Below, one piece after another: positions 3,601-25,075 of a DNA stretch of 32,826 bases. The DNA is from Deltaproteobacteria bacterium (GTDB lineage Bacteria; Myxococcota_A; Polyangia; Haliangiales; Haliangiaceae): the NCBI GenBank assembly GCA_005887925.1, contig VBLP01000108.1, forward strand, positions 1-32,826. Reading direction: 5' to 3'. Within the stretch, counting starts at the first letter, position 1. Each line of letters starts with the position of its first letter. The translations under genes were made by a program, and so were the position numbers. The notes under the pieces are model-generated. The model had not been told where the DNA came from. It saw only the letters and a list, made by a program, of their open reading frames with translations, and did not search any database.

Positions 3601-4254
3601 TCATCGCGGACTGGCGGTTACGCCGAGATCGCAGCTATCGTGCGCCGGCATCGGCCCGCACTGGCTGCCGACCACGTAGTCGCGTGCGCACTGGCAGTCG
3701 CACATCGCCATGCCGGCCGGGCAGGTCGGTACCAGGGTGATCTCGGTCTGCGCCTTCCTGCCTTCGTCGTCCTCGATGCGCACCCGCAAGAGGTACGGCA
3801 CGTCGTTGAGATCGCGCGTCGACGTGATGTGCGGACAGACCTCGAGGTTGCTGAACGTGGTCACGGACGACACGCCCCAGCCGTCGCTGCCCACGATCAG
3901 CCTCGTCGGGCGCTGGTCGATCTTGAGGATCTCGTCGTTGCAGGGATCGATCAGCGCGGTCGTGAGGCTGATCCGGCAGCCATCGATGTTTCGCGCGCGC
4001 GCGCCGAGCAGGACGATCCAGCCGCCCTGCGGAGGCTGGATCAGCGGCACGGCCGCCATCGCCGTGCTCTCGATCACCGTGTTCTCGGCGTCGAGATGGA
4101 CGATCTCGAGCTCGGCCGGCGCCGCCAGGTCGCCGATCGGACACGGCTGGGTCTCCGACGCATCCGGGTGGGGCTCACCTCCGCCGCCGCACCCGAGTGC
4201 GATCGCACCCGCGAGTGCGACCGGGTGGACGCGGGTCAGCATGGTGGGGATCAT
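3601..4254 (-). CDS. Secreted lipoprotein of unknown function, related to the small lipoprotein at 5444-5896
   Basis: The protein has 217 residues from ATG 4254, which overlaps the stop of the copper enzyme gene in an ATGA; an alternative ATG lies at 4242. It has a lipoprotein signal (GAIALGC, Cys22) and a Gly-rich tether. The mature part has PPQGGWIVLLGARARN in its middle and DDEGRKAQTEITLVPT near the end. Both segments have counterparts in the small lipoprotein two genes upstream (GPQGGTVVWGAASV and DRDGRSAIAERTIVPT), so the two are probably paralogues with a beta-sandwich-like fold. Several Cys in the last 50 residues (CPAGMAMCDCQCARD) suggest disulfides outside the cytoplasm. The function is not recognised. 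It is probably co-expressed with the monooxygenase-like protein. Confidence 0.75.
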   Translation of the reverse strand: MIPTMLTRVHPVALAGAIALGCGGGGEPHPDASETQPCPIGDLAAPAELEIVHLDAENTVIESTAMAAVPLIQPPQGGWIVLLGARARNIDGCRISLTTALIDPCNDEILKIDQRPTRLIVGSDGWGVSSVTTFSNLEVCPHITSTRDLNDVPYLLRVRIEDDEGRKAQTEITLVPTCPAGMAMCDCQCARDYVVGSQCGPMPAHDSCDLGVTASPR

Positions 4255-5327
4255 AGACAGAAGATGTCCGATTCTACCTTTGGATAGTAGTAGAGGAACA
4301 CGTTGCAGTGTTCCCCGACGTCGGTATTGCCGCCGAACGTGTAGCAGCAGTCGCCCTGGTGCAGCGGGTCCTTGTTGTTGACGTCGTCGCAGGTGAACTC
4401 GACCGGCCGCTGCCACTGGTACTCGCAGTCCCACCAGATGCCGGAGCTCGCCGGCAGTGGCACGGCGAGGCTGGTCGCCATCGGTGGGTCGTTCCAGTAC
4501 AGGCTCTCGTAGAACTGCGCGGCCGCGGGCGGGTGATCGATCGACTTGCCGTCCCAGGCCGAGATCGCGAACCTGGTGCCGCGCTTGTGGAAGTGACCGT
4601 TGGCCGCGGCGATCGTCGTCGCGCCCGGGAACCGGCAGGTCCCCGAATACGTGACGCGGGGCTGGCTCGCGCAGATCCGGATGTTCTGCTGGGTCGCGAA
4701 CAGCGAGCCCATCTCGACCGGCGGCTCGGTGGCCTGGCGGCGGTAGAAGTTGATCCCGACGCGTGCGCCGTACTTGGTGGTCTGGTCGCCGGCGTTCACG
4801 TAATGGGTCTGCAGCATCAGCATCTCGCCGGGGCGGAGCCGGATCGCCACGTCGGTCGGCAGGTTCCAGTCGGTCGTGAGCTCGCCGGAGTTGGCGTGCT
4901 GCGAGTTGGCGATCAGCGGCCAGTCGGCCCAGTTCGCGCTGCCCCAGCACGGGCTGTTCTTGTAGTCGTCGGAGCCTTCGATCACCGTGGCCGGATAGTC
5001 GCCGAGCATCGTGGGCGTGCCGCGGTCGGGGTGGAGATCGATGATGGTCTTCACCCGGAACACGTTGACGTGGTGGCTGCCGGGGTTGATCCCGGTCAGC
5101 ACGCGATCGATCCAGATGTCGTCGCCGACGCCGAGATCGGGCACGCGAACGAAGTAGCAGTTCTGGCTCTCGCGGCCCGGCGCGACCTCGAACTCGGGCA
5201 CGCGCAGGGAGAAGCCCTGCTTGCCGTGCAGGTCGTCGAGGACCCAAGGGATGAAGTCCGGTTGATCGGAGCTACAGCCGATCGAGCCGATGACCGCGAG
5301 CGCGATTACTGCTGATCTGACCTTCAT
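4251..5327 (-). CDS. PHM-like type II copper, ascorbate-dependent monooxygenase family lipoprotein
   Basis: The protein has 358 residues from ATG 5327, with GAGG about 8 nt upstream; it starts with a lipoprotein-like signal (IGSIGC, Cys18). Copper sites of peptidylglycine hydroxylating monooxygenase can be placed by motif. The CuH site would be His85-His86 (GSHHVNVF) and His175 (LMLQTHYVN). The CuM site would be His245 and His247 (NGHFHKRG). The 70-residue gap from His175 to His245 equals that between rat PHM His172 and His242. The last CuM ligand of PHM, Met314 in DEMCNLY, aligns with His340 in GEHCNVFLYYY, so the ligand appears exchanged. Cys301 and Cys341 match a PHM disulfide. Family members hydroxylate peptides or catechols, but the substrate here is unknown. 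Confidence 0.82.
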   Translation of the reverse strand: MKVRSAVIALAVIGSIGCSSDQPDFIPWVLDDLHGKQGFSLRVPEFEVAPGRESQNCYFVRVPDLGVGDDIWIDRVLTGINPGSHHVNVFRVKTIIDLHPDRGTPTMLGDYPATVIEGSDDYKNSPCWGSANWADWPLIANSQHANSGELTTDWNLPTDVAIRLRPGEMLMLQTHYVNAGDQTTKYGARVGINFYRRQATEPPVEMGSLFATQQNIRICASQPRVTYSGTCRFPGATTIAAANGHFHKRGTRFAISAWDGKSIDHPPAAAQFYESLYWNDPPMATSLAVPLPASSGIWWDCEYQWQRPVEFTCDDVNNKDPLHQGDCCYTFGGNTDVGEHCNVFLYYYPKVESDIFCL

Positions 5328-5443: not shown

Positions 5444-5896
5444 CTACGGCTGGCCTTTCGTAGGCACGATCGTCCTCTCGGCGATCGCCGAGCGGCCGTC
5501 GCGGTCGCGGGCTTCGAGCCGCCACACGCATCGCTGGTTCTGGAACTGTTCCTCGTCGGGCAGAAACACCGGGTGGCCGGAGGTCGTGCTCGCCGCGAAG
5601 CCGTCGTCGGCATCGTGGAGGTCGACGAGCACTCTGCTCAGCGATGGTGCGCCTGCGGGAGGCTTGATCGTGAAGGTGAGCTCGAGCTGATCCGGATCGA
5701 GGTAGCGCACCGACGCGGCACCCCACACGACGGTGCCGCCCTGTGGGCCGGTCCCGATCGGCACCGGATCGCCATCATGGATCAAGACGAGCTCGCTCTC
5801 CCCGAAACCGAGCGTCAGCTCCGGAGGTCCGGGATACTGCGTGTTGTGCTCGGCTCAGGCAGCCAGGACGACGACTAGACCATCGATGCGCATCAT
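5444..5896 (-). pseudogene. Small lipoprotein gene with an in-frame TGA at the lipobox cysteine codon
   Basis: Starting at ATG 5896, which has GGAG 6 nt upstream, the frame reads MMRIDGLVVVLAA, then TGA (5857-5855), then AEHNTQYPGPPELTLGFG and on for a further 125 or so residues. The stop is at codon 14, exactly where the lipobox Cys (L-A-A-C) is expected. The ORF track lists only the part from a TTG at 5785. The downstream sequence is well preserved and related to the lipoprotein at 3601-4254 (PQGG segment and C-terminal DGR..A..T.VPT). The gene lies 15 nt after the MYXO-CTERM gene and 116 nt before the copper enzyme, probably in one operon. A TGC/TGT-to-TGA change or a sequencing error is simplest; selenocysteine at this position is a remote alternative. 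Confidence 0.72.
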
Positions 5897-5911
5897 GGCA
5901 AGCTCCACGAG

Positions 5912-11375: not shown

Positions 11376-12197
11376 GTGCATCGACGGGACTACGAGCACG
11401 ACGGCTTCCTCGTCCTCGAGCGCTTCGTCGATCCCGCCGCGTGCGACGCGCTGATCGCCCGCGCCGGCGAGCTGGTCCGCGGGTTCCGCCCCGACACCGT
11501 CTCGATCTTCACCACCCGCGAGCAGACCCGCACCGCCGACGACTACTTCCTCGACTCCGGCGACAAGATCCGGTTCTTCTTCGAGGAAGACGCCATCGCG
11601 CCCGACGGCTCGTTCCGCTATCCCCTCGCCCGCTCGATCAACAAGATCGGCCACGCCCTCCACGACCTCGACCCGGTGTTCTCGCGGTTCTCCCGCGATC
11701 CGCGGCTCGCCGAGCTGATCGGCGCGCTCGGCATCGCACAGCCGTTGCTCCTGCAATCGATGTACATCTTCAAGCAGCCGTTCGTCGGCGGCGAGGTCAC
11801 CGCGCACCAGGACCACACCTACCTGTGGACCGATCCGCCGTCCGCCACCGGCCTGTGGTTCGCGCTCGAGGACGCTACCGTCGGCAACGGCTGCCTGTGG
11901 GTCCGGCCCGGCGGCCACACCGAGCCGCCGCGCAAGCGGTTTCACCGCCGCCCCGGCGGCGGCGCCTCGTTCGAGCTGCTCGACGACCGCGACCTGCCCT
12001 TCGACGGCATGGTCCCGCTCGAGGTGCCCCGCGGCACCTGCATCGTGCTGCACGGCCTGCTCCCCCATTACAGCGGCCCCAACCGCTCGCCCATCTCGCG
12101 GCAGGCCTACACGCTCCACGTCATCGACGCCGCTGCCCACTACCGCAGCGACAACTGGCTGCAGCGCAGCCCCGCCCTCCCCCTCCGCGGCTTCTAG
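11376..12197 (+). CDS. Phytanoyl-CoA dioxygenase (PhyH) family protein
   Basis: The protein has 273 residues and probably starts at GTG 11376. It has the PhyH opening YEHDGFLVLERFVDP. The Fe(II) and 2-oxoglutarate site can be placed: His144 and Asp146 in TAHQDHTYL, distal His231 in LLPHYSGPN, and Arg242 (SRQAYTLHV) for 2-oxoglutarate. QSMYIFKQP and LWVRPGGH are also typical. It should hydroxylate a small molecule or acyl-type substrate in the cytoplasm. The family is broad and the true substrate cannot be predicted. It lies 81 nt after the phosphate transporter and 81 nt before the metallo-beta-lactamase-fold gene on the same strand; a shared transcript is possible. All catalytic residues are present. 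Confidence 0.87.
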   Translation: MHRRDYEHDGFLVLERFVDPAACDALIARAGELVRGFRPDTVSIFTTREQTRTADDYFLDSGDKIRFFFEEDAIAPDGSFRYPLARSINKIGHALHDLDPVFSRFSRDPRLAELIGALGIAQPLLLQSMYIFKQPFVGGEVTAHQDHTYLWTDPPSATGLWFALEDATVGNGCLWVRPGGHTEPPRKRFHRRPGGGASFELLDDRDLPFDGMVPLEVPRGTCIVLHGLLPHYSGPNRSPISRQAYTLHVIDAAAHYRSDNWLQRSPALPLRGF

Positions 12198-12278: not shown

Positions 12279-13232
12279 ATGCCGCGCCCCCTCCTCGCGC
12301 TCGCCGCCTTGACCTTGCTCCTCCGCGCGGCGCCGGCCCGCGCCGACGTCCCCTCCGGCTGCGCGACCAAGGACGTCACCGCCGCGTTCGGCGACTTCCT
12401 GCGCACCGGCAAGATGCCGCCCGACACCGGGCGCTGGCTCTACGACAAGAAGGCCCAGTACATCGCGCCGTGGAAGGCGTTCGACAACGTCCACTTCGTC
12501 GGGATCTGCTGGGTCTCGGCGTGGCTGATCACCTCGCCCAAGGGCCACATCCTGATCGACACGCTGTACGACCCGTTCGTCGACACGCTGCTCGACAACA
12601 TCCGCAAGGTCGGCGCCGACCCCAGGGACATCAAGGTCGTCCTCATCACCCACGGCCACTTCGACCACGCCGCCGGCGCGGCCAAGCTCAAGCCGCTCTT
12701 GCCCAGGGCGCGCTTCGTCATGACCGAGACCGGCTGGCGCGAGGGCGCCGAGTCCGCCGCCGCGTCGCAGACCACCCCGAGGCCATGGACCATGCTCGCC
12801 AAGGACGTCGTCGCCAAGGAGGGCGACACGTTCACCGCCGGCGGCGTCACCGTGCGCGTCTTCGAAACGCCCGGCCACACCTTCGGCACCGCGTCGTACG
12901 CGTACGACGTCATGGACGGCAAGACCGTCGAGCACGCCGTGACCGTCGGCGGCCTCGGCCTCAACGCGATCAAGGACGCGAGCCAGGTCGAGGCCTACCT
13001 CGCCAGCGTCAAGAAGCTGCGCGCGCTGATCACCAGCGCCGACCACCCCGTGCGAGTGCACCTGACGACACACCCGTTCTCCAACGGCATGTTCGAGGCC
13101 GCCGCCGGCCTCAAGACCCGCAAACCCGGCGAGCCCCACCCGCTCGTCAACCAGCCCGGCATCCTCAAGCAGCTCGACGGCCTCGAGGCCTCGGCCAAGG
13201 ACCGCCTCGAGATCGAACGCGCCAAGAAGTAG
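12279..13232 (+). CDS. Subclass B3-like metallo-beta-lactamase fold hydrolase, secreted
   Basis: The protein has 317 residues with a Sec signal peptide (LLALAALTLLLRAAPARA) cleaved near residue 22. The mature protein has the zinc ligands of the B3 group: HGHFDH (His125, His127, Asp129, His130), GHTFGTASY (His200), and a late His, probably His265 in LTTHPF. SAWLITSPKGHILIDT in the N-terminal half also matches B3 enzymes. It should be a periplasmic di-zinc hydrolase. B3-like proteins of soil bacteria may hydrolyse beta-lactams, but many have other substrates, so resistance is not shown. The Thr-Phe in GHTFG replaces the commoner GHTPG. No strong ribosome binding site is visible before the ATG. 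Confidence 0.85.
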   Translation: MPRPLLALAALTLLLRAAPARADVPSGCATKDVTAAFGDFLRTGKMPPDTGRWLYDKKAQYIAPWKAFDNVHFVGICWVSAWLITSPKGHILIDTLYDPFVDTLLDNIRKVGADPRDIKVVLITHGHFDHAAGAAKLKPLLPRARFVMTETGWREGAESAAASQTTPRPWTMLAKDVVAKEGDTFTAGGVTVRVFETPGHTFGTASYAYDVMDGKTVEHAVTVGGLGLNAIKDASQVEAYLASVKKLRALITSADHPVRVHLTTHPFSNGMFEAAAGLKTRKPGEPHPLVNQPGILKQLDGLEASAKDRLEIERAKK

Positions 13233-24650: not shown

Positions 24651-24938
24651 ATGCGCCACGCGCTGCTCACCCTCACCGTCCTGACGTCGGCCTGTCTGGC
24701 CGAGTCCGCGAACGGTCCCGCGGGTCACACGGCGACGCGCGCCGCGCCGGCCTGCGCGACCGCGCGGCCTACCGGCAGCAACATCACTCGCTGGGTCTGT
24801 CCGCCCGAGCTGAAACCGACCGATCCCATGGAAGCGGCCGTCTGGGGCAACCACGATCCGGCCCGGCCATTCGATCCCGCGCGCGAGGGCTCGTACACCA
24901 CGGACACGCCGGGTCTCCGCGTCTATCCAATCCGATGA
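24651..24938 (+). CDS. Small lipoprotein of unknown function
   Basis: The protein has 95 residues from ATG 24651, chosen because MRHALLTLTVLTSAC gives a clean lipoprotein signal (Cys15). The ORF-track start at 24615 adds 12 residues before it. The short mature part has a Cys pair (PACATARP, WVCPPELK) and a Pro/Asp-rich end (PARPFDPAREGSYTTDTPGL). No family is recognised. Its stop codon lies inside the first unit of the 23-bp tandem repeat, so the last residues YPIR are repeat-encoded. The 81 nt between it and the kinase gene show nothing identifiable. Confidence 0.6.
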   Translation: MRHALLTLTVLTSACLAESANGPAGHTATRAAPACATARPTGSNITRWVCPPELKPTDPMEAAVWGNHDPARPFDPAREGSYTTDTPGLRVYPIR

Positions 24939-25042
24939 TCCCGCTCCGGCCAATCCGATGATCCCGCTCCGGCCATTCCGATGATCCCCCGCTCCGGCCA
25001 TTCCGATGATCCCGCTCCGGCCATTCCGATGACGCCGCTCGG
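24927..25042. repeat. 23-bp tandem repeat array (about five units)
   Basis: Units begin CCAATCCGATGATCCCGCTC and end CGG. Copies lie at 24927-24949, 24950-24972, 24973-24997 (25 nt, two extra C), 24998-25020 and a degraded fifth at 25021-25042. Units 1-2 have CCAATCC while 3-5 have CCATTCC. The period is not a multiple of three, so it is not a coding repeat. It overlaps the stop of the small lipoprotein and ends about 30 nt before the next gene, where it could affect expression. Confidence 0.92.
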
Positions 25043-25075
25043 GCGGGTCGGCGGGCGAGCGCGGTACCTGACGTG

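Follow-up and report, generated by a model that had tools for sequence, protein, structure and literature searches.

The closest described relatives of the enzyme discussed here are peptidylglycine alpha-hydroxylating monooxygenase (PHM; rat PAM; PDB 1opm, 1phm and 1sdw), which serves in the maturation of animal hormones, and dopamine beta-hydroxylase (DBH; PDB 4zel), both copper type II ascorbate-dependent monooxygenases (Pfam PF01082/PF03712). In PHM, an electron is supplied from the CuH site, while O2 binding and hydroxylation of the substrate take place at the CuM site (PMC6123673; PMC4846438). CuH is held by H107, H108 and H172, and PHM is inactivated by H107A, H108A or H172A (PMC6123673). 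CuM is held by the two histidines of an HxH motif and by a methionine, Met314 in PHM and Met487 in DBH (DBH ligand identities, PMC4846438), and these copper ligands are perfectly conserved in PHM from alga to human (PMC6123673). What the CuM methionine does in the chemistry of PHM, DBH and TBM is a long-standing question. Arg240 of PHM, together with Tyr318, binds the peptide carboxylate.

The window, a stretch of 32,826 nucleotides from a draft genome of 12.2 Mb, encodes a protein of this family in which the CuM methionine position is occupied by histidine. The reading frame runs on the minus strand from an ATG at 5327 to a final codon ending at 4254, followed by the stop at 4253-4251. The protein begins with a signal sequence and a lipobox cysteine, Cys18, which is invariant in the clade alignment, and it is therefore predicted to be a lipoprotein. 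The relevant features are:

4251 to 5327, minus strand: PHM-like two-domain lipoprotein of 358 amino acids (from translation, motif positions, fold and clade-wide alignment)
4308 to 4310, minus strand: CAC codon of His340, at the PHM Met314 position (from the codon itself and alignment)
4587 to 4595, minus strand: codons of His245-Phe246-His247, the CuM HxH motif with a clade-specific Phe (from motif positions and clade alignment)

Searches with the single protein against Pfam, NCBIfam and PDB sequences return one sub-threshold Pfam match and nothing else; this is Cu2_monoox_C (PF03712) at E 0.024 and 14.5 bits, below the cut-off of 23. The same family is matched at E 0.1 by 25 of 32 aligned members, and a profile of 32 relatives, run against the PDB with hmmsearch, reaches DBH and PHM (E 2.6e-18 to 7e-16) and places their E-M-C on the His340 column. 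The Pfam comparison suggested in the original prediction thus gives a sub-threshold result for the query itself and the expected register by way of its relatives. A His-only profile (A1) has no match in the PDB, a profile of Met-bearing paralogues only matches PHM at E 2e-20, and the His-clade and Met-clade profiles align with each other over 290 columns at 99.9 percent probability (hhalign). A structure model, also suggested earlier, was built with AlphaFold (AF2) and has a mean pLDDT of 89.6 and a pTM of 0.87. When it is compared with the PDB by Foldseek, every one of the top 31 matches is PHM or DBH, with E values between 5e-13 and 2e-10, and the first match after these follows five orders of magnitude behind at E 2.7e-5. 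The two-domain PHM beta-sandwich fold is present in the enzyme as modelled. Because the query alone is weak in Pfam and profile A1 is blank in the PDB, the link to PHM rests on the Met paralogues and the fold.

The ligand register given in the original prediction is backed by profile search and by joint alignment with 1opm and 4zel. The motifs lie at the residues given for them, with HH at 85-86, LQTHY containing H175, H245 and H247 in the HxH motif, and EHC containing H340 and C341; the distance from H175 to H245 is 70 residues, as between H172 and H242 of PHM. Columns common to the query, PHM and DBH in the joint alignment are C57, H85, H86, C127, H175, C231, H245, H247, C301, E339, C341 and C357. 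By this register the putative CuH ligands are H85, H86 and H175 and the putative CuM ligands are H245, H247 and H340. The sole copper-ligand column that differs from PHM and DBH is 340, where His takes the place of Met beside the conserved cysteine, exactly where it had been placed. The spacing from H247 to H340 is 93 residues compared with 70 in PHM, because of insertions, one of them an additional Cys-Cys loop immediately ahead of the ligand. From the register, the adjoining conserved cysteine, the fold and the fixation described below, we infer that H340 faces the metal.

The likeness to PHM extends to the six core cysteines (C57, C127, C231, C301, C341 and C357 in the enzyme, which align with PHM and DBH cysteines), the Glu-ligand-Cys context, a Gln before H172 and an Asn two residues past the CuM ligand. 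Identity in the structural alignment is about 14 percent. Compared with PHM, the enzyme has His for Met314, Phe for the Thr in HxH, Asn243 for Arg240 and Phe344 for Tyr318, so the carboxylate-binding residues are not kept; it also has the extra Cys-Cys loop and a lipoprotein anchor, and it lacks a PAL domain. From DBH, with which it has the catalytic core and copper-site columns in common, it appears to differ in lacking a DOMON or dimerisation domain, judging from its length of 358 amino acids and its core-only match. Also of the same two-domain family are Met-bearing PHM-like lipoproteins in the same bacteria, such as L002 in the same genome, L033 and L131. The Met type has undergone a strong expansion in these bacteria, where 4-10 high-scoring copies per genome are common; at least one of them (L003) lies in a longer frame whose N-terminal part is thioredoxin-like.

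A comparison of the residue at the Met314 position across bacterial homologues was also suggested in the original prediction. The family alignment contains 174 sequences, made up of the His-clade members, 92 bacterial Met-type paralogues, rat PHM and human DBH. Column 340 holds 80 His, 94 Met and nothing else; His is found in 80/80 clade members and Met in 92/92 paralogues, among which there is neither a second origin nor an intermediate. On these sequences the split is far beyond chance. The methionine expected at CuM in copper type II ascorbate-dependent monooxygenases is thus replaced throughout the clade, while the three CuH histidines (H85, H86, H175), the CuM pair H245 and H247, and F246, E339, H340 and C341 are each present in 80/80. 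Another Met at the CuM site had been proposed as the observation that would overturn the reading, and the alignment speaks against it, as no methionine column stays conserved across the His clade. Candidate surrogates for the CuM methionine (M171, M283, M206 and M255) were rejected on conservation. The best conserved, M171, occurs in 73/80 members and is part of the CuH strand, where H175 follows it by four residues; M283 occurs in only 59/80.

Trees built with columns 340 and 246 removed place a single Met/His change, with SH-aLRT support of 92 (99 rows) and 99 (172 rows). The proposed distinct subgroup with His at CuM is accordingly monophyletic and strongly constrained, and His340 is a fixed trait of one old clade. 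Its codon is CAC in the query and, in the other clade members, CAC in 75 and CAT in 4; going from ATG to CAC or CAT alters all three codon positions, and the change is therefore no single-step slip. The Phe between the HxH histidines, Phe246, is found in 80/80 His members and in none of the Met members, and Gln173 (PHM Gln170) is likewise constant in the clade (80/80) and variable in the Met paralogues. Genome searches find the clade in 75/318 genomes of the class, and a phylum sample adds two genomes outside it. It spans about 12 family-level groups of soil-type bacteria, in the one phylum that the profile searches covered and mostly in one class. Phyla beyond this one were covered through a close-relative scan of the genome collection and through plasmid records. 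The former gave four loci, in Myxococcota or in MAGs labelled proteobacteria or delta proteobacteria, and the plasmid records gave no match to the enzyme. The divergent subclades L069-L077 and L110 keep His340 and Phe246 and are devoid of the Cys-Cys loop; the His change may be older than the loop. Two His-clade members, L077 and L114, have Ala at the conserved column of Cys301, the presumed disulfide mate of the ligand-adjacent Cys341.

The enzyme gene is followed by a partner gene, and a second copy of the partner domain lies on its other side:

3604 to 4242, minus strand: Ig-like lipoprotein with PQGG and a C-terminal CxCxC (from homologue searches, adjacency and model)
5447 to 5800, minus strand: second, divergent partner-domain copy directly upstream of the enzyme (profile A4, E 1.8e-7, and tblastn)

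Neither the partner gene nor the Phe246 co-change featured in the original prediction. The partner starts 8 bases past the enzyme stop, although an overlapping ATGA start is also possible. Among loci with enough flank, an adjoining partner on the same strand is found at 56/77 His loci and at 0/31 Met loci; these counts come from targeted searches, as six-frame neighbour clustering is noisy at this G+C content. A genome-wide profile scan gives a strong partner match (E below 1e-20) in 63 genomes, all of which have the His enzyme, and the partner lies elsewhere in the genome for several genomes in which the two do not adjoin. The co-occurrence has a Fisher p of 8e-54, a value inflated by shared ancestry and drawn from scans between which about ten genomes were sampled differently. 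Invariant in the partner are QGG, one Arg and four Cys, among them the CxCxC cysteines. It matches no Pfam family, and against PDB folds gives weak Ig-like and unrelated matches, none of them confident; its own model is a confident beta-sandwich with a pLDDT of 86.5. A clear partner is missing in L069-L076 and L077, and likewise in most of L069-L077 with L110, and the partner is therefore not strictly required. Taken over 5447-5908, the frame of the upstream copy reads VVVLAA-stop-AEHN, with TGA at the expected lipobox Cys, which suggests decay or a sequence error.

Other parts of the window contain a PhyH-family dioxygenase gene (11376-12194) that directly precedes a plus-strand gene (12279-13229) for a secreted-type metallo-beta-lactamase superfamily protein with an HGHFDH motif (Pfam E 8e-21), as well as a five-copy tandem repeat at 24927-25044 with a 23-base unit (CCATTCCGATGATCCCGCTCCGG) and 91 percent matches.

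Taken on sequence and model, the enzyme is probably a surface-anchored dicopper oxidoreductase of the PHM/DBH fold in which the third CuM ligand is His and both sites are three-His, a reading we hold with some reserve. Here the soft thioether would be swapped for a third imidazole, with CuH untouched and HxH kept. Both sites would bind copper, CuH would still pass an electron to CuM, and O2 (or H2O2) would be activated at the His3 CuM. The partner may dock with the enzyme or, at the cell surface, present the enzyme's substrate to it. A peptide ending in glycine is an improbable substrate, because Arg240 of PHM is Asn here, and with Phe in place of Tyr318 peptide amidation looks unlikely. The fuller version of this reading, an active PHM-fold oxygenase with a three-His CuM that is tuned by the Phe of HxH and works as a two-component system with an undescribed Ig-like CxCxC lipoprotein, is tentative, and we would put it at slightly short of an even chance. 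Engineered Met-to-His variants of TBM are reportedly poorly active or inactive, which counts against an active His3 CuM.

The main rivals are a zinc-type switch and a non-catalytic copper role. Zinc is commonly bound by three-His sites, and His3 is a classic zinc site as well as a possible copper one, which counts against the copper reading. The former CuM could therefore hold zinc or another divalent ion, with oxygenase activity lost and copper kept at CuH for another purpose, and a change that is both radical, at all three codon positions, and fixed would fit such a switch. This is unlikely, although it deserves to be taken seriously, as none of the CuH ligands varies in the clade, nor does the Gln preceding H175 (80/80), and the enzyme shares the Glu before the ligand, the adjoining Cys and HxH with active PHM and DBH. 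Many metals, zinc included, also cannot replace copper in PHM (PMC6123673). As to the lost monooxygenase activity considered in the original prediction, the retention of all CuH ligands argues, at the level of sequence, against a simple loss of redox function. Somewhat less likely again is a non-catalytic role in copper storage, sensing or delivery at the cell surface, in which the partner would be the receiver; the lipoprotein anchor of the enzyme, the conserved CxCxC cysteine cluster of the partner and the missing substrate-binding Arg of PHM would all suit such a role. However, the whole two-domain PHM architecture and the electron-path Gln are conserved as for an enzyme, the genes recognised next to it within the window include none for copper homeostasis, and the Ig-like partner has no known copper-chaperone match and may use its cysteines for plain disulfides.

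Both sites of M314I PHM retain copper binding (PMC6123673), which leaves room for a CuM held by H245, H247 and water or another residue, with H340 pointing away. We consider this improbable, since H340 varies no more than the other five ligands do and occupies the PHM Met314 column beside a conserved Cys; at a position that holds no metal, a constant His would be unexpected in sequences that are about half diverged, and the Met members never vary either. That the query alone falls under the Pfam cut-off could be read as a sign of an alignment artefact or a decaying gene, an explanation that is hardly credible. MAFFT, hhalign, hmmsearch against the PDB and the structure concur against an artefact, and the open frames in 80 members contradict decay.

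The fold and family of the enzyme are known; what is new is His at the family-defining CuM methionine position. In the open literature searched, we found no report of a natural Met-to-His CuM. A clade with one kept replacement allows a direct comparison, in which Met paralogues from the same cell serve as controls, and Phe246, a co-changed second-shell residue, offers a testable compensation. The partner gene offers an initial clue to what a large group of uncharacterised bacterial relatives does. If the active His3 reading is true, the PHM fold would be able to carry out O2 or H2O2 chemistry without the thioether ligand.
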